Source: Anaerolineae bacterium (GTDB taxonomy: Bacteria; Chloroflexota; Anaerolineae; B4-G1). From it: a stretch of DNA of 20,972 nucleotides. The stretch's first letter is position 1, and each line of letters opens with the position of its first letter. The notes under the pieces were generated by a model. It searched no databases and was not told where the DNA came from. It saw only the letters and a program-made list of their open reading frames with translations. The DNA is taken from contig JAUWNP010000064.1 in NCBI GenBank assembly GCA_030612585.1, positions 1 through 20,972 on the forward strand. The letters are read 5' to 3'. A program made the position numbers and the translations under genes. Below are positions 3,116 through 18,549 of this stretch, in pieces.

Positions 3116-3205
3116 GCATCTTCTCAAAAATTCGGGGAAAGAAACCGGTTTTTTTCTGGACAACCCGGTTTCTCATCTGCCAAACCCCAGTTTATTGAGA
3201 AGACA
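3116..3205. mobile_element. Second MITE-like element with the same ends and a different core
   Basis: The left end GCATCTTCTCAA (3116-3127) and right end TTGAGAAGACA (3195-3205) match the ends of the 1086-1196 element, including the inward AAA..GGGG region. Flanks GCCAAACCG (3107-3115) and CCCAAACCG (3206-3214) agree at eight of nine positions, fitting an old 9 bp target duplication. The 90 bp element has a different core: a copy of the GAAACCGGG palindrome (about 3141-3172) that also occurs inside coding genes of this window. Confidence 0.75.
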
Positions 3206-3216
3206 CCCAAACCGCA

Positions 3217-3323
3217 TCTGTGGAGGGGAAAAGAGTACCGCGGGTACAGAAATGAGCAATGTAGCGAGCCACAGACGGCCCGATGGAGATTTCATCGTGT
3301 TTTTCTTCATCCGGGGTACTCTT
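3217..3323 (+). promoter_or_regulatory. Hairpin-rich leader upstream of the second kinase
   Basis: Several inverted pairs crowd this stretch: TCTGTGG (3217-3223) with CCACAGA (3269-3275), GTACC/GGTAC (3235-3239, 3243-3247), CGATG/CATCG (3281-3285, 3293-3297), and AAGAGTACC (3231-3239) with GGTACTCTT (3315-3323). Some are mutually exclusive, so alternative folds are possible. The last arm ends four bases before the GGGAG ribosome site at 3327-3331. It matches no riboswitch class that I recognise. Confidence 0.3.
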
Positions 3324-3340
3324 CTTGGGAGACACACGAG

Positions 3341-6055
3341 ATGAAAGATAAATCTAAGACCAAAAAGCAACTCATCACCGAATTGGCAGAAATGCGCCAA
3401 CGGATTGCCGAATTGGAAGCAGCAGAGACCAAGTGGGTGCGGGTGCAAGAGGCACTGCGGGAAAGCGAAGAACGCTACCGCACTGTAGCGGACTTTACCT
3501 ACGACTGGGAATATTGGATTAACCCCGACGGGAGATTTGTCTACGTTTCGCCGTCGTGCGAGCGTATCACCGGGTATCGCGCCGCTGAGTTCCTCCAGGA
3601 TCCAGAACTGCTGAAGACCACCGTACATCCTGACGACCGGGCCGCGTTTATCAGCCACCGTCACGAGGTACTGGAGACAGGCGAGGTGCTGCCCATTGAC
3701 TTCCGCATCATCACCAGTAGCGGCGAGGAACGCTGGATCGCTCACGTTTGCCAGTCGATATACAGCAGTGACGGGCGTTATCTCGGCCAGCGCGGCAGCA
3801 ACCGCGCCATCACCAAGCGCAAGCAAGCAGAGGAGGAGATCCGGCAGCGCACGGCCCAGTTGGAGGCGCTGCGAGAGGGGAGACTGGAACTCACCGCTCA
3901 GTTGGACCTGGATACCCTGCTCCACTCCATCGCCTCGCGAGCCTTCACACTGCTGGGGGGGACATTAGGGACAGTCTACCTCTACCGACCAGAACAGGAT
4001 GTGCTGGAGTTGAGCGTGACCGCCGGCCATAACCAGCCGCCCACCGGGATTGTCCTGCATCGGGGCGAGGGCCTCGCCGGTAAGGTCCTGGAGACGGGCG
4101 AGCCACTCATCGTAGACGACTACCGGCATTGGGAGGGGCGCGCGACCATCTATGATGACTATTCCTTCGCAGCCACCGTGGGTGTGCCGGCCCGCTGGGG
4201 GCAACCAGGCGCCGAGGAGGAGTTCCTGGGAGTGCTGGACGTGCACGCGGTTCCCCCGCGCACCTTCTCCCCAGCCGACGTTGAGTTGTTGAGCCTGTTC
4301 GCCACCCAGGCCGCCAGCGCCATCCACAACGTCCAGATCCTCCAGGCAGAGCAGGAGCAGCGGGAATTGGCCAAGGCACTGGAGCAGGCCGCCGCTGCCG
4401 TCAGCAGCACCCTGGATCTTGACCAGGTGCTAGATCGAATCCTGGAGCAGGTGGAGCAGGTCGTCCCTGGGGACGTTTTTAACGTCATGCTGGTCGAGGA
4501 GAATCACGCCCGGGCGGTGCGCTGGCGAGGGTACGAGCGTTTCAACGCAGGGGAGTTCATCTCCACGGTCGCCTTCCCCATCCCCGAGACGCCCACCCTG
4601 CAACAGATGGTGGAGACCGGAAAGCCGGTCATCATCCCCGACACCGGCGCTGCTCCCGACTGGGTTGCCCTGCCTCCACTGGAGTGGCTGCGCTCTTACG
4701 TCGCCGCGCCCATTCAGGTGACAGGTCTGACAATAGGCTTCTTGAACGTGGACGGCACCCGGCCGGACCAGTTCGGCCTCGCCGACGCCCGGCGGCTGGA
4801 AGCCTTCGCCAGCCACGCCGCCACCGCCATCGAGAATGCCCAGTTGTATCAGAGGTTGCAGGAGTACGCCGGGCAGTTGGAGCAGCGCGTGCAGGAGCGC
4901 ACCGCCGAACTCCAGGCCCAGTACGCCTGGCTGGACGCGATCCTGAACAGTACCACCGACGGCATCGTCGTTACCAACGAAGAAGGGAGTATCGTCCAGG
5001 CCAACCCGGTGGCCCAGGCGTGGCTCACCCAGACCCTCTCGCCGGGAGAGGCAAGCCGGCTGCGGGAGGCGGTGCAGAGCGTAGCGCGGCAGGCGTGCGC
5101 TGAAGAAACCGGGTTTTCAGGAAAAAACCCGGTTTCACTGCTGGAACTGACGGGGCTAGACCTGGAACTGAACGCCGCGTTGGTGGTAGAAGAAGGAGCA
5201 GGGAAGCCCACGGCGGCGGTGATAGACATCCACGACGTCACTCACCTCAAGGCACTGGACCGGATGAAGACCCGTTTCATCACCAACATCTCCCACGAAC
5301 TCAGGACACCGGTCGCGGCGATCAAACTGTACGCCTACTTGATGCGGCAGCACCCGGAGAAATGGGAGCAGTACCTGGACACGCTGGCGCATGAGGCGGA
5401 TCACCAGGCGGGACTGGTGGAGGGCATCCTGGAGATTTCCCGCATAGACGCCGGGCGGATGGAGATGGAGCCCCGCCCTACATCTCTCAACGAGTTGACC
5501 GAAGCCGTTGTTGCTAGCCACCATGTGCTGGCCGAGGAGCGGGGGCTGACGTTGGAACACCGGCCAGAAACTGGGCTTCGCCCTGAGGCTCAGAGCGAAG
5601 GGTTTTTCGGAAAAGACCCGGTTTCTCTGGTCGACCCGGAGCGGATGATGCAGGTGTTGAACAACCTGGTGGGGAACGGGATCCGCTACACGCCGGAGGG
5701 GGGCACAGTGGTAGTCTCCACCGGGACGGAGGAGGCAGAGGGACGCACGTGGGCCACGGTGACGGTGACAGATACGGGAATGGGTATACCGGAGGATGAA
5801 TTGCCCCACGCCTTCGATCGCTTCTTCCGGGGCGCGGAGCCACGGGCGATGCAGTTGACCGGCACCGGTCTGGGGCTGGCGATCGCCAAAGAGATCGTGG
5901 AACTGCACGGCGGGTATGTGACCGTAGAAAGCCCTTCGACCGCGCTCACCGCCACGAGCCCCGCCACGAGTACTCGCGGTGGTACTCGCGGTGGCAGGGC
6001 AGGCGAAGAAGGCGTAGGCAGCACTTTCACCGTCTGGTTGCCGCTCATCGACTAA
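3341..6055 (+). CDS. PAS-GAF-GAF-PAS sensor histidine kinase
   Basis: This 904-residue protein has no membrane helix, so it is probably cytoplasmic. Order: coiled coil (1-40), PAS (about 45-165), two GAF domains (about 185-335 and 345-500), coiled coil, a degenerate PAS (about 525-630), HisKA with H652 in ISHELRTP, and HATPase_c with N box (NNLVGNGIRY), G1 (DTGMGIP) and G2 (GTGLGLAI). GGGAG lies 9 bases before the ATG. Three in-frame repeat insertions expand it: a palindrome in the PAS region (5105-5136), a compound hairpin before the ATPase domain (5567-5625) and a low-complexity block just before the final GVGSTF motif (about 5933-6007). All catalytic motifs remain, so it is likely functional. 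Signal and partner regulator unknown. Confidence 0.93.
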   Translation: MKDKSKTKKQLITELAEMRQRIAELEAAETKWVRVQEALRESEERYRTVADFTYDWEYWINPDGRFVYVSPSCERITGYRAAEFLQDPELLKTTVHPDDRAAFISHRHEVLETGEVLPIDFRIITSSGEERWIAHVCQSIYSSDGRYLGQRGSNRAITKRKQAEEEIRQRTAQLEALREGRLELTAQLDLDTLLHSIASRAFTLLGGTLGTVYLYRPEQDVLELSVTAGHNQPPTGIVLHRGEGLAGKVLETGEPLIVDDYRHWEGRATIYDDYSFAATVGVPARWGQPGAEEEFLGVLDVHAVPPRTFSPADVELLSLFATQAASAIHNVQILQAEQEQRELAKALEQAAAAVSSTLDLDQVLDRILEQVEQVVPGDVFNVMLVEENHARAVRWRGYERFNAGEFISTVAFPIPETPTLQQMVETGKPVIIPDTGAAPDWVALPPLEWLRSYVAAPIQVTGLTIGFLNVDGTRPDQFGLADARRLEAFASHAATAIENAQLYQRLQEYAGQLEQRVQERTAELQAQYAWLDAILNSTTDGIVVTNEEGSIVQANPVAQAWLTQTLSPGEASRLREAVQSVARQACAEETGFSGKNPVSLLELTGLDLELNAALVVEEGAGKPTAAVIDIHDVTHLKALDRMKTRFITNISHELRTPVAAIKLYAYLMRQHPEKWEQYLDTLAHEADHQAGLVEGILEISRIDAGRMEMEPRPTSLNELTEAVVASHHVLAEERGLTLEHRPETGLRPEAQSEGFFGKDPVSLVDPERMMQVLNNLVGNGIRYTPEGGTVVVSTGTEEAEGRTWATVTVTDTGMGIPEDELPHAFDRFFRGAEPRAMQLTGTGLGLAIAKEIVELHGGYVTVESPSTALTATSPATSTRGGTRGGRAGEEGVGSTFTVWLPLID
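5105..5136. repeat. GAAACCGGG palindrome, in frame inside the kinase
   Basis: GAAACCGGGTTTT (5105-5117) pairs perfectly with AAAACCCGGTTTC (5124-5136) around a six-base loop. It is translated as ETGFSGKNPVS within the PAS region. Read on the minus strand its loop (TTCCTG) matches that of the copy at 17557-17590 (TTCCGG), so the two are inverted copies of one element. Confidence 0.8.
5567..5625. repeat. Compound hairpin element, in frame inside the kinase
   Basis: The outer arms GAAACTGGG (5567-5575) and CCCGGTTTC (5617-5625) enclose an inner palindrome, CTTCGCCCTGAG (5576-5587) against CTCAGAGCGAAG (5589-5600), and a GGGTTTTTC..GACCC hairpin. The right part encodes EGFFGKDPVSL, nearly the same peptide as the 5105 copy (ETGFSGKNPVSL). 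It sits between the HisKA and ATPase domains, just before the conserved VDPERMMQVLNNL helix. Confidence 0.7.
5933..6007. repeat. Low-complexity repeat insertion before the last kinase motif
   Basis: Two perfect 12-base tandem units (TACTCGCGGTGG, 5971-5982 and 5983-5994) and an imperfect inverted pair (5961-5973 with 5982-5994) make a roughly 25-codon stretch rich in Ser, Thr, Gly and Arg. In other histidine kinases the VES stretch is followed almost at once by G.GSTF, so this block appears inserted in frame. Confidence 0.6.
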
Positions 6056-6058
6056 TCA

Positions 6059-6093
6059 AGACCTGACAGGTTTTTGTGAAACCTGTCAGGTCT
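6059..6093. repeat. Perfect 15 bp inverted repeat after the kinase, possible terminator
   Basis: AGACCTGACAGGTTT (6059-6073) pairs perfectly with AAACCTGTCAGGTCT (6079-6093) around a five-base loop. It begins four bases after the kinase stop codon and ends 28 bases before the next start. There is no T-run after either arm, so it may be another palindromic repeat or an RNA 3' end stabiliser rather than a classical terminator. Confidence 0.6.
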
Positions 6094-6121
6094 GGCCTGA
6101 TCACTAGAACAAGGAGATACA

Positions 6122-8563
6122 ATGATGTCTGCTCCTGCGTGTGAAGTCACCACTCCCCCTACCCTCTGGTCCCCCGCTGAGACCCTCAGCCCCCGTGTCC
6201 AGCAGTTGCGTGACCAGTTCTGGGACTTCTATAATCGGGATTATACTAACGAGGTGCGCGCTTTCACCACCGGCACTTCATGGGACCAGGTCTACGCTCC
6301 CTGGAACTGGACCAGCGCCCCGGAGATGATGATGTTCTTCGAAGGGGCGAAGGCCTACCTGCTGGCCGATGCGGCCAGGGTGGAATTGCCCCCCGGTTTC
6401 TGGAACCAGCCTCTGGTGGTGCGGCGAGCCATCTTCTTCAAACGGGTGCTGGAGCAATACCTGCCGGTGCAGATATTGGAAGGGGAACTCATCGTCGGTT
6501 CTCATTTCTCGACCTCCCTCTCCCGCACGCTGACCCGTTCCGAGGGCCGCCAGTTTGTCCGGACGGAGAAGCGCTTCATGAAGAAAGTGCAACGGCTGGA
6601 TCGACTGGGCGTGGGCAACTGCGGCGCTGTCCCCGGTCACCTCATCCCCGACTACCCCAGCATCCTGCGGCAAGGCTGGCGGGCCATTCAGAGCGAGGCG
6701 GACGAAATCGCTCACGACCCCGCTTCCACACCTGAACAGCGGGATTTAGCCCGCGCTATCTCTATCTGCGCCGACGGCGTGCGGGCACTGGTCGCTCGGT
6801 ACGCGGCCGAGGCCGAACGGTTGGCCGCCCAGGAGAGCGATTCCAAAACCCTTGGGGTTTCAGAAAACCCCAAGGGTTTCTGTGCCGCTGAACTGGAAGA
6901 GTGCGCGCGCATCTGCCGCAAGGTCCCCTGGGAGCCCGCCGAGACCTTCCCCGAGGCTCTCCAGTCCCTTTGGTTCACCCACATGCTGGTGCTGGTCGCC
7001 GAAAGTTACCCCGGCCCCGGCGTCTCCCCTGGCCGCGTTGACCAGTATCTCTACCCCTACTACCAGGCCGACGTCGAGGCCGGTCGCCTGTCCCCCCGGC
7101 AGGCCAAGGAGTGGCTCCAATGTCTATGGATCAAACACAACTACGCCTACGACTACCAGGGCTGGGTCGGTACCAACCAGGGCATCAACTCCTCGTTCGG
7201 TCAACTCATCACCCTTGGCGGGATGGACAAGAATGGGGAGGATGCCAGTAACGAACTGACCTACCTGATGCTGGACGTCATCCAGGAGATGAACCTCCTG
7301 GAGCCCAAGCCCAACGTCCGGCTGCACGCCAGAACCCCCGACCGGCTCCTCGGCCGGGTGGTGGACATGATCGCGGAAACCCAGGGTAGCCCCTTCCTGC
7401 TCAACTTCGACGAGAACTCTATCGAGGGCTTGCGCTGGCAGGGGTTGCCGGAGGAGGCTCTATGGGACTATGCCCCCGTCGGCTGCCTGGAGAACACTTT
7501 GCAGGGCAACGACCGGTCCGGCACGGTGGACGTCAACCTGAACATCGCCAAGGCGGTGGAGTTGGCCCTGCACTCTGGCCGGGACGCGGCGACCGGCGAA
7601 CAGATCGGCCCCCGCACGGGCGATCCGCGGACCTTCGCCACCTTTGACCAATTCTTCGCTGCCTTCAAAGCACAACTGAAGACCCTGCTGGAACTTCTGA
7701 TCGCCGCCAACGACGTCGCCGACGCGGGCCGGGCGCAGTTCGAGCCGACGCCCTACGTGAGCGCGCTGGTGGACGACTGCCTGGATAGCGGAAAGGACAT
7801 CACTGCGGGCGGAGCGCGATACAACTTCATCACCGTCGAGGGAGTGGCCCTGGCGACGGCGGCCGACAGCCTGGCGGCGGTCAGGAAACTGATCTACGAC
7901 GAGGGAACCATGACGATGGACGAACTGGTGCAGGCACTGGACGCCAACTTTGAGGGGTACGAACCGCTGCGCCAGACACTCCTGAACAAGGCCCCCAAGT
8001 ATGGCAACGACGAGACCTACGCCGACGAACTCGCCCGTCAGATCAGTCAATTCTGGACCAGCGAAGCGTTCAAGCACGTCACGCCCGAGACGGACAAACG
8101 ATACCGGAGCGGGTACCTCTCCTGGAACTACTGGATCTCCTACGCCCCCAAAACCGGCGCTACGCCTGACGGGCGGAAACGCGGCCAGTTCCTGAGCAAC
8201 GGCGTCTGCCCAGTCAACGGGGCCGACCGGTTGGGACCCACCGCCGTGATCAAGAGCGTGGGGCATCTGGGAATGGAAACTGCTCCCAACGGCGCTTCTC
8301 ACACGATGAGTTTCTCGCCTGGTTTGCTGCGGAACCCCGAAAACCGGCTCAAACTGGCGGCGCTGCTGCGGGCCTACGGCCAGGTCGGGGGGACTTGCCT
8401 GCAGGTTAACGTCATCAGCCCAGACACACTGCGGGCGGCGCAAAAGGACCCCGACACCTACAGCAATCTCCTTGTGCGCGTCACCGGCTACAACGCCTAT
8501 TTTGTGATGCTGGGCCGGGAGATCCAGGACGAGATCATCGCGCGGGAGAGTCATGCCATTTAG
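6122..8563 (+). CDS. Glycyl radical enzyme of the lyase/dehydratase type (PFL-like)
   Basis: This 813-residue protein has both hallmarks of the family: the thiyl cysteine C455 in VGCLEN and the glycyl radical site G789 in RVTGYNAYF near the C-terminus. A single Cys followed by x-Glu (GCxE) is typical of dehydratase, decarboxylase and lyase members and unlike the Cys-Cys of true pyruvate formate-lyase, so formate production should not be assumed. The substrate cannot be read from the sequence. AAGGAG six bases before the ATG supports this start (a second ATG follows directly). A 15 bp palindrome is inserted in frame at 6846-6879. The enzyme is oxygen-sensitive and needs an activase; the candidate (12104-13063) is 3.5 kb downstream beyond a restriction-modification block. 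Confidence 0.93.
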   Translation: MMSAPACEVTTPPTLWSPAETLSPRVQQLRDQFWDFYNRDYTNEVRAFTTGTSWDQVYAPWNWTSAPEMMMFFEGAKAYLLADAARVELPPGFWNQPLVVRRAIFFKRVLEQYLPVQILEGELIVGSHFSTSLSRTLTRSEGRQFVRTEKRFMKKVQRLDRLGVGNCGAVPGHLIPDYPSILRQGWRAIQSEADEIAHDPASTPEQRDLARAISICADGVRALVARYAAEAERLAAQESDSKTLGVSENPKGFCAAELEECARICRKVPWEPAETFPEALQSLWFTHMLVLVAESYPGPGVSPGRVDQYLYPYYQADVEAGRLSPRQAKEWLQCLWIKHNYAYDYQGWVGTNQGINSSFGQLITLGGMDKNGEDASNELTYLMLDVIQEMNLLEPKPNVRLHARTPDRLLGRVVDMIAETQGSPFLLNFDENSIEGLRWQGLPEEALWDYAPVGCLENTLQGNDRSGTVDVNLNIAKAVELALHSGRDAATGEQIGPRTGDPRTFATFDQFFAAFKAQLKTLLELLIAANDVADAGRAQFEPTPYVSALVDDCLDSGKDITAGGARYNFITVEGVALATAADSLAAVRKLIYDEGTMTMDELVQALDANFEGYEPLRQTLLNKAPKYGNDETYADELARQISQFWTSEAFKHVTPETDKRYRSGYLSWNYWISYAPKTGATPDGRKRGQFLSNGVCPVNGADRLGPTAVIKSVGHLGMETAPNGASHTMSFSPGLLRNPENRLKLAALLRAYGQVGGTCLQVNVISPDTLRAAQKDPDTYSNLLVRVTGYNAYFVMLGREIQDEIIARESHAI
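6846..6879. repeat. Perfect 15 bp palindrome, in frame inside the glycyl radical enzyme
   Basis: AAACCCTTGGGGTTT (6846-6860) pairs exactly with AAACCCCAAGGGTTT (6865-6879) around a four-base loop. It adds a peptide reading KTLGVSENPKGF between two helical segments in the N-terminal half. The arm sequence differs from the GAAACCGGG family but the design is the same. Confidence 0.75.
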
Positions 8564-8578
8564 CGCGAACTGGGTAGA

Positions 8579-8595
8579 GTCAGATTCGCTCTGAC
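8579..8595. repeat. Small hairpin after the glycyl radical gene
   Basis: GTCAGA (8579-8584) pairs with TCTGAC (8590-8595) around TTCGC. It lies 16 bases after the stop codon. Its form (GTAG before the stem, TT.GC loop) recalls the hairpins in the core of the 1086-1196 element. There is no T-run, so terminator function is uncertain. Confidence 0.4.
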
Positions 8596-8659
8596 AGAAA
8601 GAGCCTGCTCACAAACGCATCTGCACGACTAGAGATCGCGTAGGAGGACACAGACAACT

Positions 8660-9274
8660 ATGAATTCCGTGAACGCTGAATTGCATACTTTTCGATCGCC
8701 AAAGTTCCGCAGTGTGGTGGAGGAGGCTATCAGATTCTTCGAGGGTACCCCCGTCCATCAACTGCCTCCGCCCGGCCGGTTTACAGGGTGCGGGGTCTAC
8801 GCATTGTACTACGTCGGCGACTACAAACTTTACGCCAGGATCGCCCGGCTCAACCAAAATGCCTGCGTCCTGCCCGTCTACATAGGCAAGGCTGTACCAC
8901 CTGGGTGGCGGACGGCACGAGTAACCTCTACCGAGAGGAAATCACTGTACGGCAGATTGCGAGAGCACACGAGGAACATCCAACAAGCCAAGAACCTGGA
9001 AATCGGTGATTTCCGCTGCCGATTCGTAATCCTGCAGGAGGTGGAATCTGACCTCATTGTGCCCATTGAAGCAGCGCTGATCAGGAAACATCGGCCTCTC
9101 TGGAACTCGGTCGTAGACGGCTTTGGCAATCATGACCCCGGGAGGGGACGATACAACCAAGCCCGGTCGGAGTGGGATGTCCTGCACCATGGCAGGCCGT
9201 GGGCAGACAGGTTGAGAGGAGAGTCACCCAGTTTGGAGGAGGTGGTTGCAAAGATTCGTGCTTCTCTCGACTAG
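8660..9274 (+). CDS. Eco29kI-like GIY-YIG type II restriction endonuclease
   Basis: This 204-residue protein has the GIY-YIG nuclease layout: GVY at 45-47, VYIG at 73-76, an Arg in YGRLREH (97-103), catalytic Glu at 137 (PIEAAL) and Asn at 149 (PLWNS). The following block (FGNHDPG at 155-161, SEWDVLHHGRPWA at 170-182) is what I recall as characteristic of the Eco29kI family, whose type enzyme cuts CCGCGG. Specificity here is unproven. AGGAGG lies 12 bases before the ATG, rather far, so the true start is slightly uncertain. The gene converges with the methyltransferase gene, their stop codons overlapping in CTAG at 9271-9274. Together they form a probable type II restriction-modification system. 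Confidence 0.88.
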   Translation: MNSVNAELHTFRSPKFRSVVEEAIRFFEGTPVHQLPPPGRFTGCGVYALYYVGDYKLYARIARLNQNACVLPVYIGKAVPPGWRTARVTSTERKSLYGRLREHTRNIQQAKNLEIGDFRCRFVILQEVESDLIVPIEAALIRKHRPLWNSVVDGFGNHDPGRGRYNQARSEWDVLHHGRPWADRLRGESPSLEEVVAKIRASLD

Positions 9275-10635
9275 CGTTTCCTTACCTCTACAACAGCCTC
9301 GTAGAGGCGTTGCTTGACTCCGGCCTTTGCGACGCGGACGTCCGATCGGATAATGCTGTTGCCAACCCTGGCAGCTCGTGGGATTTCTATGTTCACCAGC
9401 TCAAGGCCAACGGACTCAGCGATCTTGCCAAAGTATTGGTCCGTCGGTACAAGAATGCCCTGTAGGATGCTGTTTCCGATCACGACCAAGGCAGTGCCAC
9501 CCGGTTTCAACGTATGCTTAATTCCCAGTGCAAACTTATAGCAGTCGTTGAAGTATGATGCGGCGTAGTTCGCCCACCCTGCGCCACCATACACACCCTT
9601 TCCGGGGTTGGCTTTTCTGAGCGTATCCAGACGATCCACGAGGTCTGTGTTCGGCAAGGGGAATTCTAGCTGCACAGTCGCGCTTGCACGGACGGTCTGC
9701 CAGTACTTACCAAAGTTGGACTGTTCCAGGTGTTTCAAATCTCTTGGACGCTGCGCATATCCCAGCCAGTAGAGTTGTGGGCGCGTGTTTCTGACATAGT
9801 GATAATTGTTCAGGTACGGCGGGGAGGTGACGATCAAGTCAACCGAGCCAGGAGCAAGGTGCTCTCTGCACTGAGAAAAAGGAGCACAGATAACTCGGAC
9901 GTCGGGAGGAGAGTCAGTTGGAAGCCTATCCTTGAACCACGTGATGTCCTCCGCCATCTCTGCAAGTTTTGCCTGGATTGCCTCACCAACCGGGAAGTCC
10001 TTGATCTCCTCCTTGCCCGCGCTCGCCCGGCGGCCTAGACTAGGTTCATAAGAGTAATTCGAGTAGCGCACCATTGTTGACGTAAAAGCCAACCTGAACA
10101 AGTCTCGGATGCGAGTGCCTTGAATCGTTTCAATGAAATCCCAGACAATCAAGACTTTGTGGAGGACTCGGGGACTATAGAACGCCGAGCGTGTTCTGAA
10201 GCCTGCGGGATACGAACTGTGTGGTACATAATCTGTTGAGAGGGTGACTTGGTAGAACTCCCGGAATCTGGCAATCTCTTCGCGCAAGATGTCTGTGTCC
10301 ACCTGATGGACATTGGCTTTCAATTCGCTGGCCAGGGCAGCATACGGGTTAATCTCGAATCCAACCGCGCTGTGCCCATGCAGTACCGCTTCTACCAGGG
10401 TGGTTCCTACGCCTGCAAAGGGGTCCAGGACAGTCCCCGGTCCTTCCATGTACCTGGCAAGGACGCTGGCGACAAAACCACTAGAAAAGCCTGCGATCCA
10501 GGGCACCCACCTATGAATGGGCAGAGACTTGTTGTTTGAAAACGCCGGGTCCGCGAACGTCGAGACCCCGTTGTCTAGTTCGATCCCTGCCAACGGCAAC
10601 TGCCTGTAGCCAGATAGAGCACTGCGAGAACTCAT
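9271..10635 (-). CDS. SPPY-type DNA methyltransferase (probable cytosine-N4 or adenine-N6)
   Basis: This 454-residue protein has the SAM-binding motif I DPFAGVGTT at 71-79 and the catalytic motif IV TSPPY at 270-274, in the order motif I before motif IV. The SPPY form favours N4-cytosine methylation, though N6-adenine is not excluded. It lacks the PC/ENV motifs of C5-cytosine methylases, which I recall being the partner type of Eco29kI itself, so this pairing may be a different combination. It should protect the host from the convergent nuclease. Its ATG overlaps the stop of the Phd-like gene (ATGA at 10632-10635), so the two are translationally coupled and share the promoter at 10931-10959. 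A stand-alone methyltransferase is possible but less likely. Confidence 0.88.
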   Translation of the reverse strand: MSSRSALSGYRQLPLAGIELDNGVSTFADPAFSNNKSLPIHRWVPWIAGFSSGFVASVLARYMEGPGTVLDPFAGVGTTLVEAVLHGHSAVGFEINPYAALASELKANVHQVDTDILREEIARFREFYQVTLSTDYVPHSSYPAGFRTRSAFYSPRVLHKVLIVWDFIETIQGTRIRDLFRLAFTSTMVRYSNYSYEPSLGRRASAGKEEIKDFPVGEAIQAKLAEMAEDITWFKDRLPTDSPPDVRVICAPFSQCREHLAPGSVDLIVTSPPYLNNYHYVRNTRPQLYWLGYAQRPRDLKHLEQSNFGKYWQTVRASATVQLEFPLPNTDLVDRLDTLRKANPGKGVYGGAGWANYAASYFNDCYKFALGIKHTLKPGGTALVVIGNSILQGILVPTDQYFGKIAESVGLELVNIEIPRAARVGNSIIRSDVRVAKAGVKQRLYEAVVEVRKR

Positions 10636-10914: not shown

Positions 10915-10929
10915 TGGCTAATTTAGCCA
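10915..10929. promoter_or_regulatory. 15 bp palindromic operator candidate
   Basis: TGGCTAA-A-TTAGCCA on the minus strand is a perfect 7-1-7 palindrome. It lies just downstream of the -10 box (10931-10936), covering the expected transcription start. It is well placed for repression by the Phd-like protein encoded immediately downstream. Confidence 0.6.
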
Positions 10930-10930
10930 T

Positions 10931-10959
10931 ATTATAGCAGGTAACTGTTCGTTTGTCAA
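10931..10959 (-). promoter_or_regulatory. Consensus sigma70 promoter for the Phd-like/methyltransferase operon
   Basis: Read on the minus strand, TTGACA (10959-10954) and TATAAT (10936-10931) are both perfect consensus with a 17 bp spacer, and TG one base before the -10 adds an extended element. It drives the Phd-like gene starting at 10886. Confidence 0.85.
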
Positions 10960-11058
10960 GTCCTTTCCATCGCCAGTCATCCCGGAGCCAAGACCACCAA
11001 GAACGATTGGGGAACCGAATTCCGCATCCTTCGCCAGCGCACGTTCTTTAGCCAAAGG

Positions 11059-12123: not shown

Positions 12124-13063
12124 CGTCCAGCGCTTCAGCACCGAGGACGGCCCCGGCATCCGCACGACCGTGTTTATGAAGGGCTGTCCGCTCCGCTGCG
12201 CCTGGTGCCACAACCCGGAGGGGCTCTCCCCCCGCCCGGAGTTGATGTGGTACGACGTACGCTGCATCGGCGCTCGCGACTGTCTGAGCGCCTGCCCGGA
12301 GGATGCACTGGAGTTGACGCCCCGGGGAATGTGCATTGACCGCGCGAAATGCACCGCTTGCGGAGACTGCGCAGCGGCCTGTCCCGCCGGGGCGCTGGAG
12401 GTGATTGGCAAGGAATGGGCGCCGGAGGAACTGTTCGCCGAGGTGGATAAGGATACTGTGTTTTACGAGACTTCCGGCGGCGGCGTGACGCTCTCCGGCG
12501 GCGAGCCGATGCGCCAATCTGACTTTGTGCTGGCTATCTGCCGCCTGTGTAAGGAAGCGGGTCTCCACGTGGCGTTGGACACCTGCGGCACGGTGCCGTG
12601 GGAGCAGTACGAGCGTGTTCTGCCGCTGCTGGACCTGGTACTGTACGACCTGAAGATTTTCGACACAGAGCGCCACCGGGCCAGCACGGGCGTAGACAAT
12701 GGACTTATTCTCGAAAATGCACGCCGTATCGCCGCCGCCAGCAAGCCAATGTGGATCCGCACCCCCGTCATCCCCGGCCACACCGCGAGCGCGGCCAACA
12801 TTGGTGCCCTCGGTAACTTTATCGCTGCCGAACTACCCACGGTCCAGCGGTGGGACCTGCTGGCCTACACCAACCTGGGTCAGCCCAAGTACCACCGGTT
12901 GGATCGGCCCTACGGATTGGAAGGCGTGCCGCTCCTGACCCGCGCCGAGATGGAGACGCTCCACGCCGCCGCCCTCCAGCGGGTAGACGTGGCAGTCTGG
13001 TCAGGGGCAACACGCGCGGAAGACGCGGAGGGCTCTGAGAATTGTATCAACGAGCCATTGTGA
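12104..13063 (+). CDS. Glycyl radical enzyme activating protein (radical SAM)
   Basis: This 319-residue protein has the radical SAM motif CxxxCxxC (C28, C32, C35), preceded by the STEDGPGIRT signature typical of activases. A ferredoxin-like insert for extra 4Fe-4S clusters follows (cysteines from C54 to C93, including CTACGDC and CPAGAL), then the SGGEP SAM-binding motif. The insert is usual for activases of dehydratase-type glycyl radical enzymes and absent from the pyruvate formate-lyase activase. It would generate the glycyl radical at G789 of the enzyme at 6122-8563. It overlaps the deaminase gene; the separation from its presumed target by a restriction-modification block is unusual. Confidence 0.93.
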   Translation: MKGITFNVQRFSTEDGPGIRTTVFMKGCPLRCAWCHNPEGLSPRPELMWYDVRCIGARDCLSACPEDALELTPRGMCIDRAKCTACGDCAAACPAGALEVIGKEWAPEELFAEVDKDTVFYETSGGGVTLSGGEPMRQSDFVLAICRLCKEAGLHVALDTCGTVPWEQYERVLPLLDLVLYDLKIFDTERHRASTGVDNGLILENARRIAAASKPMWIRTPVIPGHTASAANIGALGNFIAAELPTVQRWDLLAYTNLGQPKYHRLDRPYGLEGVPLLTRAEMETLHAAALQRVDVAVWSGATRAEDAEGSENCINEPL

Positions 13064-13064
13064 T

Positions 13065-13175
13065 GAAAAGAGTTGGAATAGCCAGTTCCCTTTCACCGAC
13101 CCAGACCGAGCCCGCGAGTTCGCCCTCGGCTACTTCGAGCGGCTGCGGGCCGACCCAGACATCCACAAGACCTGG
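13065..13175 (+). pseudogene. Possible gene remnant
   Basis: An open frame here without a start codon reads like protein (FPFTDPDRAREFALGYFERL) and runs into the CAAACGT tandem repeat at about 13176. It may be the tail or an internal piece of a lost gene. The family is not recognised, and chance is possible in GC-rich DNA. Confidence 0.25.
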
Positions 13176-13219
13176 CAACGTCAAACGTCAAACGTGAAGC
13201 GTCAAACGTCAAATATCAA
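13176..13219. repeat. Imperfect tandem repeat of a CGTCAAA-type unit
   Basis: A seven-base unit (CGTCAAA and variants such as CGTGAAG) is repeated about six times, ending 18 bases before the start of the next gene. The downstream ribosome site GAGAGG is separate from it. Confidence 0.75.
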
Positions 13220-13237
13220 ATGTGAGAGGTATGTATT

Positions 13238-14092
13238 ATGTCCATTGTCGCAACGTTGTCTGGCTTGATAGAGGCCCTCTCGGACGAAATGACCCCCAAG
13301 TTTCTGGCGACCCGCTCGGCTGACGGCGTCCCCAACGTGGTGCCGTGCACCTCGCTGATGCCGGCGGGCGATGTGGAGGACCGTCTGATCTTCGGTAACT
13401 TCTTGCTGCGCAAGTCAGTGAGAAACCTGGATAGCGACCCCCGCGTGGCCATCCTGGTCATCACCACCGACCTGGAGGGCTGGGTATTGCAGGGGGACTT
13501 TGTAGAGTGGCAGCGGACGGGAGCCTACGTGGACCGCCTCAATAACACCGACCTCCTGCGCTACAACGCCTACACCGGCATTCGCAACGCCGGTATCATC
13601 CAGGTGCGGGCGGTGCTGCGCCATTTCCGTATCTCCAAACTGCGCGTGCTGGCAGATTACCTGCTGGCCCGCGCCGCAGCCCGTCCCATCACCCCACTCG
13701 CCCCCCCCGAAGCGGGGGAAAGTCCCTTCTTGCCGAAGGATGCGGTGACGATGCCCCGGCCGGTGCGAGAGGGGTTCAGCCCGGTGACGGCGGTGCGGGT
13801 GCTGACCTTTCTGGATAGCGAGGGTTACCCGCTGGCAGCGCCGGCGCTCTCCCTCCAGCCTGCCGGAGAGAGTGCGCTGGTCTGCGCAGAGGGATTGTTC
13901 GCCGACATGCTGGAACCGCTGGCCGTTGGCGCTCCAGTTGCTGCCTCACTCCTCACCCTCGACATCGTCTCCTTCCAGGCCAAGGGACGGTGGCTGGGAG
14001 GGCGACGGTTGCTAGGAGCGCCGGTGGGCGCGATGTCAGTGACGGCCGTCTACGCCGGTGGGCCACCTATCCCCGGCCGGCAGGTGGCGTGA
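13238..14092 (+). CDS. FMN-binding split-barrel (pyridoxamine 5'-phosphate oxidase-like) protein
   Basis: This 284-residue protein begins with a split-barrel flavin-binding domain: a helix, then FLATRSADGVPNVVPC, then LIFGNFLLRKSVRNLDSDPRVAILV, the usual order of strands and the helix that contacts FMN. Residues 120-160 are helical, and the C-terminal 120 residues look like a second, diverged barrel (SEGYPLAAPALSLQPAGE). It probably binds FMN or a related flavin as an oxidoreductase or flavin carrier; the substrate is unknown. GAGAGG eight bases before the ATG supports the start. A short palindrome (13704-13718) lies in the linker between the halves. It sits just upstream of a PadR-controlled flavin reductase operon, suggesting related chemistry. 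Confidence 0.8.
   Translation: MSIVATLSGLIEALSDEMTPKFLATRSADGVPNVVPCTSLMPAGDVEDRLIFGNFLLRKSVRNLDSDPRVAILVITTDLEGWVLQGDFVEWQRTGAYVDRLNNTDLLRYNAYTGIRNAGIIQVRAVLRHFRISKLRVLADYLLARAAARPITPLAPPEAGESPFLPKDAVTMPRPVREGFSPVTAVRVLTFLDSEGYPLAAPALSLQPAGESALVCAEGLFADMLEPLAVGAPVAASLLTLDIVSFQAKGRWLGGRRLLGAPVGAMSVTAVYAGGPPIPGRQVA
13704..13718. repeat. C-rich/G-rich hairpin in the linker of the flavin protein
   Basis: CCCCCG (13704-13709) pairs with CGGGGG (13713-13718) around AAG, within a stretch encoding LAPPEAGESPFLP. The position between the two barrel halves fits a tolerated insertion, but the repeat is short. Confidence 0.4.
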
Positions 14093-14208
14093 AGGCTGAG
14101 TGCCAATTCATCCTCACCTATGAGCACGATGTCGGCAAGGCTCATGGCTTCCCACTGCGCCATACACAACTCTTCCGGGAAAACACCCCCCCTCTCGGTA
14201 AATTGGAC

Positions 14209-14237
14209 TTGACAAACCATTCTTTTTGTGGTATTAT
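14209..14237 (+). promoter_or_regulatory. Sigma70 promoter of the PadR operon
   Basis: TTGACA at 14209-14214 and TATTAT at 14232-14237 are spaced by exactly 17 bp. The first gene of the operon starts at 14285, leaving a leader of about 40 bases. Confidence 0.8.
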
Positions 14238-14251
14238 ATGACTGATCATAT
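14236..14251. promoter_or_regulatory. Operator candidate for the PadR regulator
   Basis: ATATGA (14236-14241) and TCATAT (14246-14251) form a six-base inverted repeat with a four-base centre. It overlaps the -10 and the expected start of transcription. PadR proteins usually bind short AT-rich dyads at their own promoters, so autoregulation is likely. Confidence 0.55.
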
Positions 14252-14284
14252 ATAGGATGAGGCTTATAATAGAAAGGACGTCTG

Positions 14285-14842
14285 ATGTCCCTGGAACATG
14301 CCATGCTCGGCTTTCTACGCTATACCCCGTTGACGGGATACGATCTGAAGAAGGCCTTTGACGTTTCAGTGCGCCACTTCTGGCCAGCCGACCAGAGCCA
14401 GATTTACCGCACCCTGGCCCGCATGGCGGAGCGGGGATGGGTGGAGATGGAGGTCATCCCACAGGAGGAGCGCCCCAACCGTAAGGTCTACAACATCACC
14501 GAGGCAGGACGGGAGGAACTACGCCGCTGGTTGGCCACGCCACTCCCCCCCGACGATCACCGCCTCCCCTGGCTGGTTCAAGTCTTCTTCTCCGGGCAAC
14601 TGGACGACGAGGAGGTACTGGCCCTCTTCGAGCGAGAAGCCGAGCAGTTGCGAGCCAGGCTGACACGTTACGCCCAGGTGCCCCAGGAGAGCGCCGCCTA
14701 CGTCGAGACAGTCGGTTCTCCCCGCGAGACCTTCTTCTGGATGTTGACGCTGGAGTACGGGGGCACAGTGAATCGGGCGGCGTTGGAATGGATAGAGGAA
14801 GTCATGCGGCGTCTGCGGCGCGGAGAGCAACCTTCCCGCTGA
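14285..14842 (+). CDS. PadR-family transcriptional regulator
   Basis: This 185-residue protein starts with the PadR winged helix (MLGFLRYTPLTGYDLKKAF, SQIYRTLARMAERGWVE, KVYNITEAGREEL) in residues 4-85. A helical C-terminal dimerisation half of the AphA/Vir type follows (about 95-178). It should bind a dyad in its own promoter and respond to a hydrophobic or aromatic effector. It leads an operon: the flavin reductase gene starts 41 bases downstream. AGAAAGGA lies just before the ATG. It probably represses the whole operon through the palindrome at 14236-14251. Confidence 0.92.
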   Translation: MSLEHAMLGFLRYTPLTGYDLKKAFDVSVRHFWPADQSQIYRTLARMAERGWVEMEVIPQEERPNRKVYNITEAGREELRRWLATPLPPDDHRLPWLVQVFFSGQLDDEEVLALFEREAEQLRARLTRYAQVPQESAAYVETVGSPRETFFWMLTLEYGGTVNRAALEWIEEVMRRLRRGEQPSR

Positions 14843-14882
14843 TCAGCCAAGACCAAAGACAAATATAGGGAGGAAAAACAAA

Positions 14883-15989
14883 ATGAAGATTCTAGCGATT
14901 AACGGCAGCCCACGGGGCAAAAAGAGCAACACCGATCGCATCCTGCAACCCTTCCTGGAAGGGGCGCGGGAGAACGGGGCAGAGACGGAGACGGTCTACC
15001 TGAAGGACAAGACCATCAATCCTTGCATTGGCTGTTTCACTTGTTGGACCAAGACGCCCGGCGTCTGCGTCCACAAAGACGACATGCCCGCGCTGCTGGA
15101 AAAGTTGCGCGAGGCGGACGTCGTGGTCTACGCCACGCCGCTCTATGTCTTTACTGTCACCGCGCAGATGAAGGCGTTTATGGACCGCCACATCCCCATA
15201 CTGCAACCGTTCATCCTCGAACGAGACGGGCAGTACATCCATCCCCAGCGCTACGAGTCACGACATAACAAAGTGGTGCTCATCTCCAATTGCGGCTTCC
15301 CGGAGCGGCATCACTTCTCCGGGCTGGAGGAGACGTTCCGCTGCTTCACTTCGGGCCCTGATTCGGAACTGGCCGGTACCATTCTGTGCGCTGGGGGAGA
15401 GTTGTTGAAGCAGCCAGCACTGCAAGAGAACACCCAGTGGTACATCGAGGCTGCCTGCCAGGCCGGGCGCGAGGTAGTCGAACAGGGCCACATCGCGCCG
15501 GAGACACAGGAGACGCTGGACCGGCCGCTTATGGAGAACCCCGCCGTCTACGCCCGCATGGCGAACGCCCACTGGAATAGCGTCGTCGCCCGCCCGGAAG
15601 GGGAAGCCGGGCCGGGGGAGGGCGAACCGGGAACACGGCTACCGCCGCCCACTTCCCGCGACACGGTGCGCGATCTGATCGCTGGCATGGCGATAGTCTT
15701 CAACCCCGATGCGGCAGGGGATCTCCAGGCCATAGTCCAGTTCGACGTGAGCGGCGACGAGCCGGGGCAATACTATCTGCACATCGCCGAGGGAACGTGC
15801 GCCGCCTTTGAAGGCATCCATCCCGAACCTACACTGACCATACATACGCCCTCGGAAGTATGGCTACGCATCAGCCGGGGGGAACTGGACGGGGCGCAGG
15901 CGATGATGTCGGGCCAGTACACCGTCGAGGGCGACCTGGGGTTGCTGATGCGCTTTAGTCAACTCTTTTCGACAGCGCTGGAGACGTAA
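14883..15989 (+). CDS. NADPH-dependent FMN reductase-like flavoprotein fused to an SCP2 domain
   Basis: Residues 1-215 are a flavodoxin-fold reductase: phosphate-binding loop GSPRGKKSNT (8-17), the CIGCFTCW cysteine motif, and YATPLYVFTVTAQMKAFMDR, as in iron-sulfur flavoproteins and NAD(P)H-dependent FMN reductases. A Pro/Gly-rich linker of about 25 residues leads to a C-terminal SCP2 sterol-carrier-like domain (about 260-368), which in other proteins holds a hydrophobic ligand. The same SCP2 type begins the next protein, so the domain appears duplicated across the gene border. GGGAGGA eight bases before the ATG is a strong ribosome site. The next gene begins four bases after the stop. It may reduce a quinone-like or lipid substrate presented by the SCP2 domain (inference). 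Confidence 0.88.
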   Translation: MKILAINGSPRGKKSNTDRILQPFLEGARENGAETETVYLKDKTINPCIGCFTCWTKTPGVCVHKDDMPALLEKLREADVVVYATPLYVFTVTAQMKAFMDRHIPILQPFILERDGQYIHPQRYESRHNKVVLISNCGFPERHHFSGLEETFRCFTSGPDSELAGTILCAGGELLKQPALQENTQWYIEAACQAGREVVEQGHIAPETQETLDRPLMENPAVYARMANAHWNSVVARPEGEAGPGEGEPGTRLPPPTSRDTVRDLIAGMAIVFNPDAAGDLQAIVQFDVSGDEPGQYYLHIAEGTCAAFEGIHPEPTLTIHTPSEVWLRISRGELDGAQAMMSGQYTVEGDLGLLMRFSQLFSTALET

Positions 15990-15993
15990 CAGT

Positions 15994-18549
15994 ATGCAAA
16001 TCCCAACCAATACTTCGGCACAACTCAGTACAAGCCTCAACCTGCGCCAAACCATCGAAGGTATGCCGCTGGTCTTCGACCCTGCCGCCGCTGGGGAACT
16101 GACCGCCACGATCCAATTCGACGTCAGCGGCCCCGAACCCGGCGTATATCACCTGCGCATTGCAAGCGGCGAGTGCACCTTTCACGAAGGAGCCGCCGCC
16201 TCCCCTTCCCTCACTATCTCCACCCCCTCCGACGTGTGGTTAAAAATCAGCCGGGGCGAACTGTCCGGGCAGGAAGCGATGATGCAGGGCCTTTACAACG
16301 CCAAGGGCAACATCAGCCTGTTGCTCAAGATGGACAGTTTGTTCAAGCCAGCCGCAGAGGTCTCCTACGAAGCGCCTCCCGGTCAGCGCCCCGCCGGACC
16401 GATTCCACTGCCGGGCATGGCCTGGATGCAGGTCGCTTTTCTGCCGTGGATGATCCACTGGATCACCTTCGATATTCCCGGCGTGAGCCGCTGGGTCAGC
16501 GTCGGGCTGCCGCTGCTTTTGGCCGCGCTGATCGTCGGCTACCGCCTTGCTTTTCGAGGGACCACGTCCCGTTCTCCCAATCACCAATTTCCCAATTACC
16601 AACCCCCTACATGGCTGGAATGGGGCGGGCTGGGATTTTTCGCCCTGGCAGGAGTGCTCACCCTGACAGACGAGACCGGCTTTGCCGTCTGGGGCTCGAT
16701 CGTCAGCAGCGTGGTGATGGCGGCCCTATGGCTGGGGACACTGCTCTTTGCCGATGAGCCGCTCTCGGCCAACTACTCCAAGTGGGGCTATGTCAAAGCC
16801 TTGTGGCGCAACAGCATGTTCATCTACCCCAACGCTGTCATCAGCCTGATGTGGGGCTACCAGTTCATCGTCGCCGCGCTCGTTGGCGCAGCCGCGATCC
16901 TGCTGCCCAATCTGATGGTCGTCTTTACCGTCACCCGCTACCTGTTGCTGGTACCGGCGTTCATCTTTACCTCTGTCTACCAGTCCCGCGCCGCCCAATC
17001 TCCAATCTCCAATTACGCATCATCTATGGCCCGGTTGCGCTTCTGGGCCGGGATGGGGCTTTCGGCAGTTTCCGGGCTGCTGCTGGCAGCCTCCATGCCC
17101 AATTTCGACGTGGGGCTGCTGGGCTGGCTGGCGCTGGTACCACTGGTGGCGACCCTCACAATCGCGCCGGTCAAACAACATTACCTGCTGGCCCTACCCT
17201 TTGGGATGGTTTGGTCCATCGCCGCCCACAACTGGTACCCGAACATCTTTAGCCCGACGTTGGGCTATTTCCTGATCATCGCCGTCGGCACATTCTACGC
17301 CGGGATCATCCAGTTGGGAGTCTGGCTCCAAGGTCGGCTGCCGGGCGCGCTCAAACTGCTGGCCCTGCCCGTGACCTGGGCCGCCGTCGAGTTCGTCAAG
17401 TTCGTCGCCCCGGTGGTGGAGGATTGGTGGTTCGTGCTGCTGGCGAAATCGCAGTGGCGATTCCCGCCGGCGCTGCAGATTCTGAGCGTCACCGGTTTTC
17501 CTGGCCTCTCCTTCCTCGTTATGCTGGCAAACGTCGCCCTGGCATTTCTGTTACTAAGAAACCGGGTTTTTTCCGGAAAACCCGGTTTCTGGACCTGCGT
17601 CGCCACACTGACCATCGTCGCGCTCATCGTCGTATGGGGCGCGGTGTCTCTGCCCTCACCCCCAACCAACACCTTCACCATCGCTGCGCTGACCGACCTG
17701 GTCAACCAGGACCCCGCCATCGGCACAGGCGGCGAGAGTTCGGGCGTTGGCTACGTGGCGACGACCCCTGAAATGTCGCAGGCCATCTTTGACGTAGACG
17801 CCGCGCTGACGCGCCAGGTCGCCCACCAGCATCCTGCCTTCGTCGTCTGGCCAGAGAACGAATTTGCCCAGGTGACGGACGCGGGGATGATGGCTCAACT
17901 GGGTGCGCTGGCCGCGGAAACCAACGCCTACATCGTGGCCGACGTGGTGTCCACCAAATCCGGCCGGCCCGTGGCCGATTTCAGCACGGCGGACGATCTG
18001 TACGACACTGCCATCCTGTACGGCCCGGATGGAAACGAAGTCGGGCAGCGGCCCAAGATCAACATCACCGGCGGCGAGGCCGGTCATGGCTTCATCCCTG
18101 GGCCGCGCACGTACCCGGTCTTTGACACGCCGTACGGCAGTGTAGGGATCGGGGTCTGCTGGGACCGGCACCGGCTGTTCATCGTCCGCGAACTGGCCCG
18201 CAGCGGCGCACAGATCGTCCTTATGCCCGCGGACGACGACTTCGAGGCCAACGCTTGGTTCCCAGCCTACCATGCCTCCGACACCGTTTTCCGCGCTGCC
18301 GAGAACCGTCTCGCCTTGACCACCGGCACGACGAGCGGCCTCTCGGTGATCGTTGACCCCTACGGACGTATCGTGGCCGAAGGCACCGTCAACGAGCGTG
18401 GCGTCATTGTCGGCGAGACTTTCACTGTGCCCGGGCAGACGCTCTACACTCGTTGGGGCGACTGGTTCGGGTGGCTGACGGTTATCCTCTTGTTGGTGGC
18501 CGCCGGCAGGGCAATCTTTGTGAGCACATCGAGGAAAAATGGAACGTGA
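15994..18549 (+). CDS. SCP2-membrane-nitrilase fusion, apolipoprotein N-acyltransferase-like
   Basis: This 851-residue protein has three parts. Residues 1-120 are an SCP2 domain closely similar to the one ending the previous protein. Residues about 135-330 hold several membrane helices of unknown family. Residues about 345-851 look like Lnt: further membrane helices, then a carbon-nitrogen hydrolase domain with a complete triad, E621 (WPENEF), K688 (RPKINI) and C722 (GVCWDR), and a final membrane helix. Lnt acylates the N-terminus of lipoproteins on the outer face of the inner membrane. The N-terminal fusion adds about 330 residues to the usual length, so a different acyl donor or acceptor is possible. 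Three repeat-derived stretches lie in loops (16573-16611, 16994-17015, 17557-17590). GGAG precedes the ATG. Confidence 0.88.
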   Translation: MQIPTNTSAQLSTSLNLRQTIEGMPLVFDPAAAGELTATIQFDVSGPEPGVYHLRIASGECTFHEGAAASPSLTISTPSDVWLKISRGELSGQEAMMQGLYNAKGNISLLLKMDSLFKPAAEVSYEAPPGQRPAGPIPLPGMAWMQVAFLPWMIHWITFDIPGVSRWVSVGLPLLLAALIVGYRLAFRGTTSRSPNHQFPNYQPPTWLEWGGLGFFALAGVLTLTDETGFAVWGSIVSSVVMAALWLGTLLFADEPLSANYSKWGYVKALWRNSMFIYPNAVISLMWGYQFIVAALVGAAAILLPNLMVVFTVTRYLLLVPAFIFTSVYQSRAAQSPISNYASSMARLRFWAGMGLSAVSGLLLAASMPNFDVGLLGWLALVPLVATLTIAPVKQHYLLALPFGMVWSIAAHNWYPNIFSPTLGYFLIIAVGTFYAGIIQLGVWLQGRLPGALKLLALPVTWAAVEFVKFVAPVVEDWWFVLLAKSQWRFPPALQILSVTGFPGLSFLVMLANVALAFLLLRNRVFSGKPGFWTCVATLTIVALIVVWGAVSLPSPPTNTFTIAALTDLVNQDPAIGTGGESSGVGYVATTPEMSQAIFDVDAALTRQVAHQHPAFVVWPENEFAQVTDAGMMAQLGALAAETNAYIVADVVSTKSGRPVADFSTADDLYDTAILYGPDGNEVGQRPKINITGGEAGHGFIPGPRTYPVFDTPYGSVGIGVCWDRHRLFIVRELARSGAQIVLMPADDDFEANAWFPAYHASDTVFRAAENRLALTTGTTSGLSVIVDPYGRIVAEGTVNERGVIVGETFTVPGQTLYTRWGDWFGWLTVILLLVAAGRAIFVSTSRKNGT
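16573..16611. repeat. CCAATTACC-type simple repeat in a membrane-protein loop
   Basis: Imperfect repeats of a CCAATTNCC unit encode a hydrophilic loop (SPNHQFPNYQPPT) between two predicted membrane helices. The codons are AT-richer than the surrounding gene. It resembles intergenic simple repeats and the related stretch at 16994-17015. Confidence 0.5.
16994..17015. repeat. CCAATCT tandem repeat in a second loop
   Basis: CCAATCT is repeated twice and followed by CCAATTAC, translated as QSPISNYAS between two membrane helices. It is related to 16573-16611 in the same gene. Confidence 0.5.
17557..17590. repeat. Perfect GAAACCGGG palindrome, in frame in the acyltransferase-like gene
   Basis: AGAAACCGGGTTTT (17557-17570) pairs perfectly with AAAACCCGGTTTCT (17577-17590) around TTCCGG. 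It encodes RNRVFSGKPGF at the end of a membrane helix. The same element occurs inverted at 5105-5136, in part at 5567-5625, and as the core of the MITE-like element at 3116-3205. Here it is read in a different frame from the kinase copies. Confidence 0.85.

Follow-up and report, generated by a model that had tools for sequence, protein, structure and literature searches.

A 34-bp palindrome in frame in unrelated genes of Anaerolineae and other bacteria, with apparent loss of native codons

Introduction

Palindromes lying in frame within proteins have been described mainly from Rickettsia and Wolbachia, together with some intragenic repetitive extragenic palindromes (REPs) elsewhere. The Rickettsia palindromic elements (RPEs) are palindromic repeats of about 100-150 bp found in frame in Rickettsia genes, and their peptides are placed in solvent-exposed regions (PMC3767692, PMC10969869). 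Di Nocera 2013 (PMC3733652) describes GTAG and CGTC REPs, some of them intragenic, places GTAG repeats in Chloroflexi, and predicts more untagged palindromes. Here we analysed a 20,972-nucleotide contig of an Anaerolineae bacterium (JAUWNP010000064.1; the whole stretch is called the window), in which an initial annotation had noticed a palindrome of the GAAACC/GGTTTC type in frame in unrelated proteins. What is new here is a 34-bp, frame-breaking palindrome whose genic copies, judging from sequence comparisons, go with the loss of native codons.

This palindrome resembles RPEs and the Wolbachia palindromic elements (WPEs) in being palindromic, in frame in many unrelated proteins, and accompanied by several families. 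It differs from RPEs in several respects: the unit measures 34 bp against about 100-150 bp (96-144 in rows of an RPE table), its length is not a multiple of 3, target sequence is apparently lost, the arms covary, and the hosts are Chloroflexota, UASB270, cyanobacteria, and Desulfobacterales. With the GTAG/CGTC REPs and their REP-associated tyrosine transposases (RAYTs) it shares the form of dispersed 20-40 bp hairpins, some of them intragenic (PMC3733652), but it has no GTAG or CGTC end motif, is almost perfectly symmetrical with neither head nor tail, and has no clear linked transposase. Like miniature inverted-repeat transposable elements (MITEs), it is short, non-autonomous, and composed of inverted repeats, and one copy lies within a MITE-like element at 3115-3208; unlike them, it shows no clear target-site duplication and has no spacer body, the hairpin being the whole element. 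As in hairpins formed by template switching (quasipalindrome correction), the arms are homogenised by paired changes, but the same palindrome occurs at unrelated loci, which goes beyond local correction alone.

Among the matches listed in the open-access literature for Chloroflexi or Anaerolineae and for in-frame or coding palindromes, no title or abstract start describes the 34-bp palindrome; the four arm sequences do occur in 5 papers there, whose titles and abstract starts seem to point to other subjects. The word "undescribed" in the initial annotation thus rests on, and is limited to, open-access sources.

Results

Copies in the window

GAAACCGGGTTT matched the window 15 times at up to 2 mismatches (both strands, a palindrome being counted more than once) against 1.66 expected, and none of 100 shuffles reached 15 matches. 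The nearest named homologues of window proteins are labelled "Anaerolineae bacterium" or "Chloroflexota bacterium". The copies and their host genes are as follows; palindromes and the MITE-like element carry no strand.

5104-5136: palindrome copy 1 (GAAACC/GGTTTC), situated between GAF region and HisKA and in frame with the histidine kinase gene
5566-5626: palindrome copy 2, interrupted by a nested hairpin and located ahead of HATPase_c in the same kinase; encodes ETGLRPEAQSEGFFGKDPVS
5576-5600: nested 25-nt hairpin CTTCGCCCTGAGGCTCAGAGCGAAG of a second palindrome family, adding 9 aa (27 nt)
17557-17590: palindrome copy 3, full 34 bp, in frame in the SCP2-Lnt gene, directly past the LNT_N match (which ends at residue 514)
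3115-3208: MITE-like element upstream of the kinase, with inverted repeats ATCTTCTCAA../..TTGAGAAGA and a degenerate palindrome copy inside (3140-3173)
3341-6055, plus strand: host gene for a PAS-GAF-GAF-HisKA-HATPase histidine kinase of 904 aa (domain matches)
15994-18549, plus strand: host gene for an SCP2, LNT_N, and CN_hydrolase fusion (apolipoprotein N-acyltransferase-like) of 851 aa (domain matches)

Copy 1 comprises 33 of the 34 bp, the final T being replaced by A, and encodes ETGFSGKNPVS; its hairpin at 5105-5136 is perfect, with 13-bp arms and a 6-nt loop. Copy 3 encodes RNRVFSGKPGF and also forms a perfect hairpin (17557-17590; 14-15 bp arms). Both had been reported in the initial annotation and were confirmed as perfect hairpins. 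The segment 5567-5625, reported there as a partial copy, is a real copy but not a partial one: it is the full copy 5566-5626 interrupted by the nested hairpin. The MITE-like core noted near 3141-3172 likewise corresponds to the degenerate copy 3140-3173, which lies between inverted repeats at 3115-3137 and 3185-3206 and is imperfect (folding z -2.48; 3 of 200 shuffles fold equally well).

A unit of 34 bp with covarying arms

The consensus of the unit is AGAAACCNGGTTTTTC(N)GAAAAACCN'GGTTTCT. Among 91 copies whose flanks are unique (what was left of 139 once the 48 sharing similar flanks had been removed), the unit was preceded by A in 84 and followed by T in 80. Since this wider set had been fetched partly with patterns that include the edge bases, the edge was rechecked on 51 copies of the exact-scan set only, found with a 32-bp pattern lacking the edge bases; A preceded 47 of the 51 and T followed 48, while one base further out was mixed. 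The conserved A and T edges, together with the mixed bases outside them, define a unit of 34 bp. No GTAG or CGTC tag was seen at the edges in the flank composition of the 51- and 91-copy sets, and no base outside the 34 bp was conserved. In the 91 copies, direct repeats of 4-7 nt occurred at 7 sites against 4.7 expected from shuffled flanks, which is no clear excess of target duplication; the two longest measured 6 and 7 nt (0.3 expected), and direct repeats of 2-3 nt numbered 40 against 46 expected. We also considered a 36-bp insertion with a 2-bp duplication, which was rejected because the flanks hold no such excess.

Arm covariation was measured on 158 distinct copies (95 distinct 32-mers). 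Watson-Crick cells made up 84.9%, compared with a mean of 79.0% and a maximum of 80.5% in 200 shuffles, and cells changed on both sides numbered 87 (mean 38.3, maximum 51). The middle pair of the arm was G-C in 46 of the 95 and A-T in 28. Other palindromes of 33-36 bp with a like layout and other letters, such as AGACCTCAGAGGTTTTCCGAAAACCTCTGAGGTCT, were found in genomes with this family. Anaerolineae genomes hold several families of similarly sized hairpins, the 34-bp palindrome among them.

In-frame copies in other genes

Genic status was taken from Pfam or homologue support and not from overlap with open reading frames (ORFs). A plain "intragenic" count from the longest ORFs was rejected because many ORFs in high-GC genomes look spurious by composition (for example L010, L013, L016, and L045, judged by composition only); the 34 of 45 copies that lie in ORFs of G012 were not used either. 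Supported hosts included an IorA-type oxidoreductase (L150), an ABC-2 permease, an HI0933-type flavoprotein (two related genomes), GvpL/F, an OB-fold protein, a GltD-like flavoenzyme, an Eco57I methylase, a PurL-like synthase, a radical SAM protein, an aconitase-family isomerase, DUF2298, and a C25-type peptidase. Pfam support was above the cut-off for most of the 21 genes; L009 and the AAA matches of L129 fell below it. For L110, Pfam supports the OB fold only, and the gene may, as its sequence reads, represent the end of DnaE. The copies in L155 and L300 sit at protein ends.

As for RPEs, the palindrome was thus found in frame in unrelated genes (23 copies in 21 genes), and the suggestion of a repeat family tolerated in unrelated proteins outside Rickettsia is borne out by copies in many genes. 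The 23-copy set leaves out two copies on which the pattern failed, namely the split one in the kinase and the degenerate first one in IorA. The three codon phases were used 14, 1, and 8 times. In the window two phases are in use, as the initial annotation had stated; the two orientations that it also listed mean little for a palindrome. The rare phase (KPGFFRKTRF) occurred once although it is stop-free in 21 of the 23 copies, and at most 1 of 21 in that phase has a probability of about 0.002 under equal use, for a set that was hand-chosen and in which three copies share one gene. This phase bias points to selection on the peptide. In alignments to solved relatives, the genic copies map to gaps or variable segments, and the segments hit are probably surface loops.

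Loss of native codons beside the copies

A clean insertion would shift the reading frame, since a length of 34 cannot be divided by 3 and no duplication compensates; the initial annotation had suggested testing whether copy lengths are multiples of three, and for this unit they are not. Filled and empty sites were compared at the DNA level in one family of three genomes (G042, G077, and G105), for a flavoprotein and an isomerase, which settles for these genes whether the peptide goes with the palindrome in the DNA, a check asked for in the initial annotation; the window genes were compared at the peptide level.

In the HI0933 flavoprotein, G042 reads TCC-CGTGGGCGGGTTT-ATC, and G077 and G105 read TCC-(34-bp palindrome)-ATC. 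Here 34 nt replace 13 (net +21), and the G042 form matches two solved relatives, which lack the extra 7 residues. In the isomerase, G077 retains SEEVLAYVRGR, which can be aligned with the solved enzymes 4nqy and 4kp1 (presumably archaeal), and G105 lacks this 11-residue segment and carries the palindrome peptide, with a net change of -2 aa. The lost 33 nt and the palindrome copy are 9 nt apart, so that one or two events are possible. The two copies in IorA correspond to +5 and to +2 or +3 residues relative to four orthologues (64-67% identity). In the best-resolved cases, therefore, native codons were lost on balance beside the copy. Across several sites, native loop codons are evidently lost, so that the protein gains fewer than the 11 residues that the copy encodes; the peptides are encoded as the initial annotation said, but plain addition does not describe them. 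At both junctions whose polarity is known (2 of 2), the empty allele already holds an end of the repeat, GGTTTCTGG in the isomerase and GGTTT in the flavoprotein; two cases make this no more than a lead. No ortholog of the GvpL copy was found in G105 or G042. At the GltD-like site, a relative carries a tandem repeat in the same linker (ATCGAAA-type in G077), and the site gives no polarity.

Filled and empty sites in the window gene families

The peptide was present in 11 of 45 aligned homologues at kinase site 1, in about 9 of 45 at kinase site 2 (one more is truncated there), and in 9 of 60 at the Lnt site. Most aligned homologues thus lack the peptides, in line with the expectation that orthologues without the repeat exist. 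Kinase carriers included the nearest relatives and a few proteins at 65-68% identity over the compared region; for the window genes together, carriers beyond the near-identical ones include some at 65-72% identity.

The nested hairpin added 9 residues (27 nt) each time. At kinase site 2, it occurs in the window and P0121 (26 against 17 residues), and the relatives P0122-P0127 have an unsplit copy 9 residues shorter. At kinase site 1, the nested hairpin occurs in P0127, P0129, and P0132 (30 against 21 residues). In L068/L262 (64% identity to the Lnt protein), a different palindrome, AAGAAGTCAGGCTTCTTCGAAGAAGCCTGACTTCTT, lies in the same loop, so this loop was hit at least twice.

The window also contains palindromes of other sequence, missing from the initial annotation, in and near a third gene:

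6122-8563, plus strand: host gene for a PFL-like glycyl radical enzyme of 813 aa (domain matches)
6846-6879, no strand: AAACCCTTGGGGTTTCAGAAAACCCCAAGGGTTT (AAACCCTTGGGG..), a palindrome from a different family that keeps the frame of the PFL-like gene; peptide KTLGVSENPKGF
6059-6093, no strand: intergenic palindrome AGACCTGACAGG..CCTGTCAGGTCT between the kinase and PFL-like genes, of like architecture and other sequence

The PFL insert was missing in 109 of 116 anchored sequences. In 98 of the 109 the anchors are separated by 26 residues, compared with 35 to 43 in the 7 filled sequences. Two solved relatives also lack 11 residues there. In these length comparisons, sequences without anchors were removed (kinase site 1, 33 of 121; kinase site 2, 50; Lnt, 50; PFL, 5 of 121).

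Dispersal across genomes

A scan of one genome per species for the 26 specified bases, matched exactly, gave 49 stretches in Ardenticatenia, Anaerolineae, Thermoflexia, other Chloroflexi, a UASB270 genome (which we take to be Vecturithrix), several cyanobacteria, and two Desulfobacterales; no Rickettsiales were among the named records. Small dispersed repeats in cyanobacteria have reportedly been described by Elhai. The 18 genomes reached by the scan, all positive by choice since they were picked through exact matches, contained 1-49 copies each at up to 3 mismatches, and a reversed pattern gave 0 in the same genomes. Absence of further copies, which would have spoken against a repeat family, is thus not what was found. 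In the class of G001, 24 of 249 genomes carried the 34-bp form at up to 1 mismatch; in the class of a cyanobacterial genome, 2 of 116 did. Of these, 3 of the 24 and 1 of the 2 had been reached through the palindrome itself. This patchy distribution is as for mobile DNA. G012 alone held 47 copies, many of them inside a longer repeat; 31 were left without identical flanks, and the flanks of 14 of these resemble those of another copy.

Discussion

From dispersal and from filled and empty sites, we infer mobility. On balance we favour, with some confidence, a non-autonomous dispersed 34-bp palindrome that can settle within variable segments of genes, at the cost of native codons. Hairpin-forming DNA would be copied or transposed to new sites, and loss of a target of 3k+1 nt, along with or after insertion, would bring the gene back into frame and recover much of the length of the loop; one route could be copying by way of short matches to GGTTT(CT). 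Only copies with a tolerated peptide would survive, and hairpin template switching could maintain arm identity. A host function would not be needed, and the repeat may best be regarded as selfish or neutral DNA supplying loop sequence. More tentatively, it may be a codon-replacing mobile palindrome, in which one templated step swaps out a target of 3k+1 nt, so that a frame-breaking repeat could nevertheless spread through proteins and alter their loops, and a single hairpin-recognising or replication-based process serves several unrelated families of the same size across phyla.

Codon loss is also favoured by two window sites, at which filled sequences stay close to the median number of residues between anchors (Lnt, 46-50 in filled sequences, 46 in the window, against 47; kinase site 2, 17 against 16.5). 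Several observations weigh against this account. The analysis turned up neither an autonomous partner nor a transposition event. Filled sequences at kinase site 1 have 21 residues against a median of 13, a gain of about 8 aa; loop lengths vary naturally, and these kinase and Lnt figures compare present-day homologues and not an ancestor. In the PFL-like gene, where the palindrome is of another family, the gain is a clean 17 aa (51 nt) in three relatives and 9 to 12 aa in the window and three others. This pattern fits insertion followed by trimming, so that, as these sequences read, loss may come after insertion and not with it, and replacement in one step is weakened. The shuffle used for covariation ignores kinship among copies, and the 23-copy genic set was hand-chosen and is not fully independent.

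Two more specific explanations of how the palindrome moves are each possible on the present evidence while falling short of being probable. In the first, these would be REP-like elements moved by a Y1 (HUH) RAYT transposase, a single-stranded hairpin being cut and pasted and the flanking codons deleted later. Y1_Tnp genes were present in 7 of 7 genomes searched, and palindromes lie beside or within some Y1 genes (L117, with GTAGGGGTTTGATGCATCAAACCCCTAC-type flanking repeats, L109, and L116), the GAAACC family itself being at Y1 loci in L107/L114. The lack of a clear target duplication is what IS200-like movement predicts, and the PFL-like gene agrees with later trimming. However, the edges of the GAAACC family carry no GTAG or CGTC tag, and the family was near a Y1 gene at 2 of 30 fetched loci (30 of 71 matches), plus one GAAACCGAG variant; these neighbourhood counts are raw counts and not enrichment, the background palindrome density coming from few stretches.

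At L116 (G012:C94), AGACCTCCGAGG/AGACCTCCGAGGTTTCTGAAACCTCGGAGGTCT palindromes were in frame (TSEVSE..) in three neighbouring ORFs, namely a putative restriction helicase (weak Pfam match), the Y1 transposase, and an N6/N4 methyltransferase.

The second explanation, replication template switching alone, has a short match such as GGTTTCT prime the copying of a palindrome from elsewhere, followed by rejoining downstream, so that the target is replaced in one step. Template switching that makes or keeps hairpins is a subject of published work (PMC8794818, PMC8604942). At both polarised DNA-level sites the empty allele holds a repeat end. Many 34-bp copies keep the frame despite a length that cannot be divided by 3, and the homogenised arms agree with switching within a hairpin. 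On the other side, the informative DNA-level sites number only two, the isomerase loss lying 9 nt from its copy may reflect two events, and the PFL-like gene resembles insertion followed by trimming. Because the GAAACC family stands at 2 of 30 Y1 loci plus one variant, as raw counts, we give Y1 transposition and template switching similar odds. The idea that selection favours a functional site at every position (a terminator, an RNA hairpin, or a protein-binding site), with convergent coding copies, would suit the strong hairpin energy and the many copies outside ORFs, but is very improbable given the same sequence in unrelated genes and its absence from near orthologues, arm variants that change together, and the patchy spread (24 of 249 genomes).

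Under the favoured account of a dispersed palindrome settling with codon loss, a shorter, frame-breaking palindrome is present in bacteria that are apparently free-living, Anaerolineae among them, which suggests that repeats of this kind contribute loop sequence to proteins more generally. The close genomes with filled and empty sites provide a system for reading the insertion process from DNA. Where peptides such as ETGFFRKNPVS, RNRVFSEKPGF, TSEVSENLRGL, and LRPEAQSEG turn up in predicted proteins, they may stem from a repeat and should not be taken for conserved motifs.

Other repeats in the window

At the palindrome positions, no Rfam family scored above its gathering score; the sole match in the window was a group II intron piece at 19714-19815 (minus strand; RF00029, 67.6 bits), beside an ORF at 18949-19707. 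A sister of the MITE-like element, with the same inverted repeats ATCTTCTCAA as at 3115-3208, lies at 1083-1198. It contains a GTAG-ended double hairpin (GTAGGTCGG..CCGACC..GGCGG..CCGCCCTAC), which we read as REPIN-like (a REP doublet forming a hairpin). It is located at the junction of a dCache ORF (292-1116) and a PAS-kinase ORF (1186-2850), probably one kinase gene split by the element.

Near its C-terminus, within the HATPase domain, the histidine kinase has a third inverted-repeat insert at 5949-5994 (GCCACGAG../..CTCGCGGTGGC), and its homologues have other repeat-like peptides at this spot (SGQAPST and LSEAEGLRAG). Short CCAAT-type near-tandem repeats, identified by eye, are in frame in the Lnt gene at 16570-16606 and 16994-17021 (SPNHQFPNYQPP and QSPISNYASS); they are a repeat type distinct from the palindrome, elsewhere in the same protein. 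AACGTCA-like heptamers stand in tandem in the intergenic segment 13177-13225. Finally, a 69-nt direct repeat of 91% identity occurs at 167-235 and 3362-3430; its first copy precedes the dCache ORF, and its second encodes the N-terminus of the kinase (KKQLITELAEMRQRIAELEAA).

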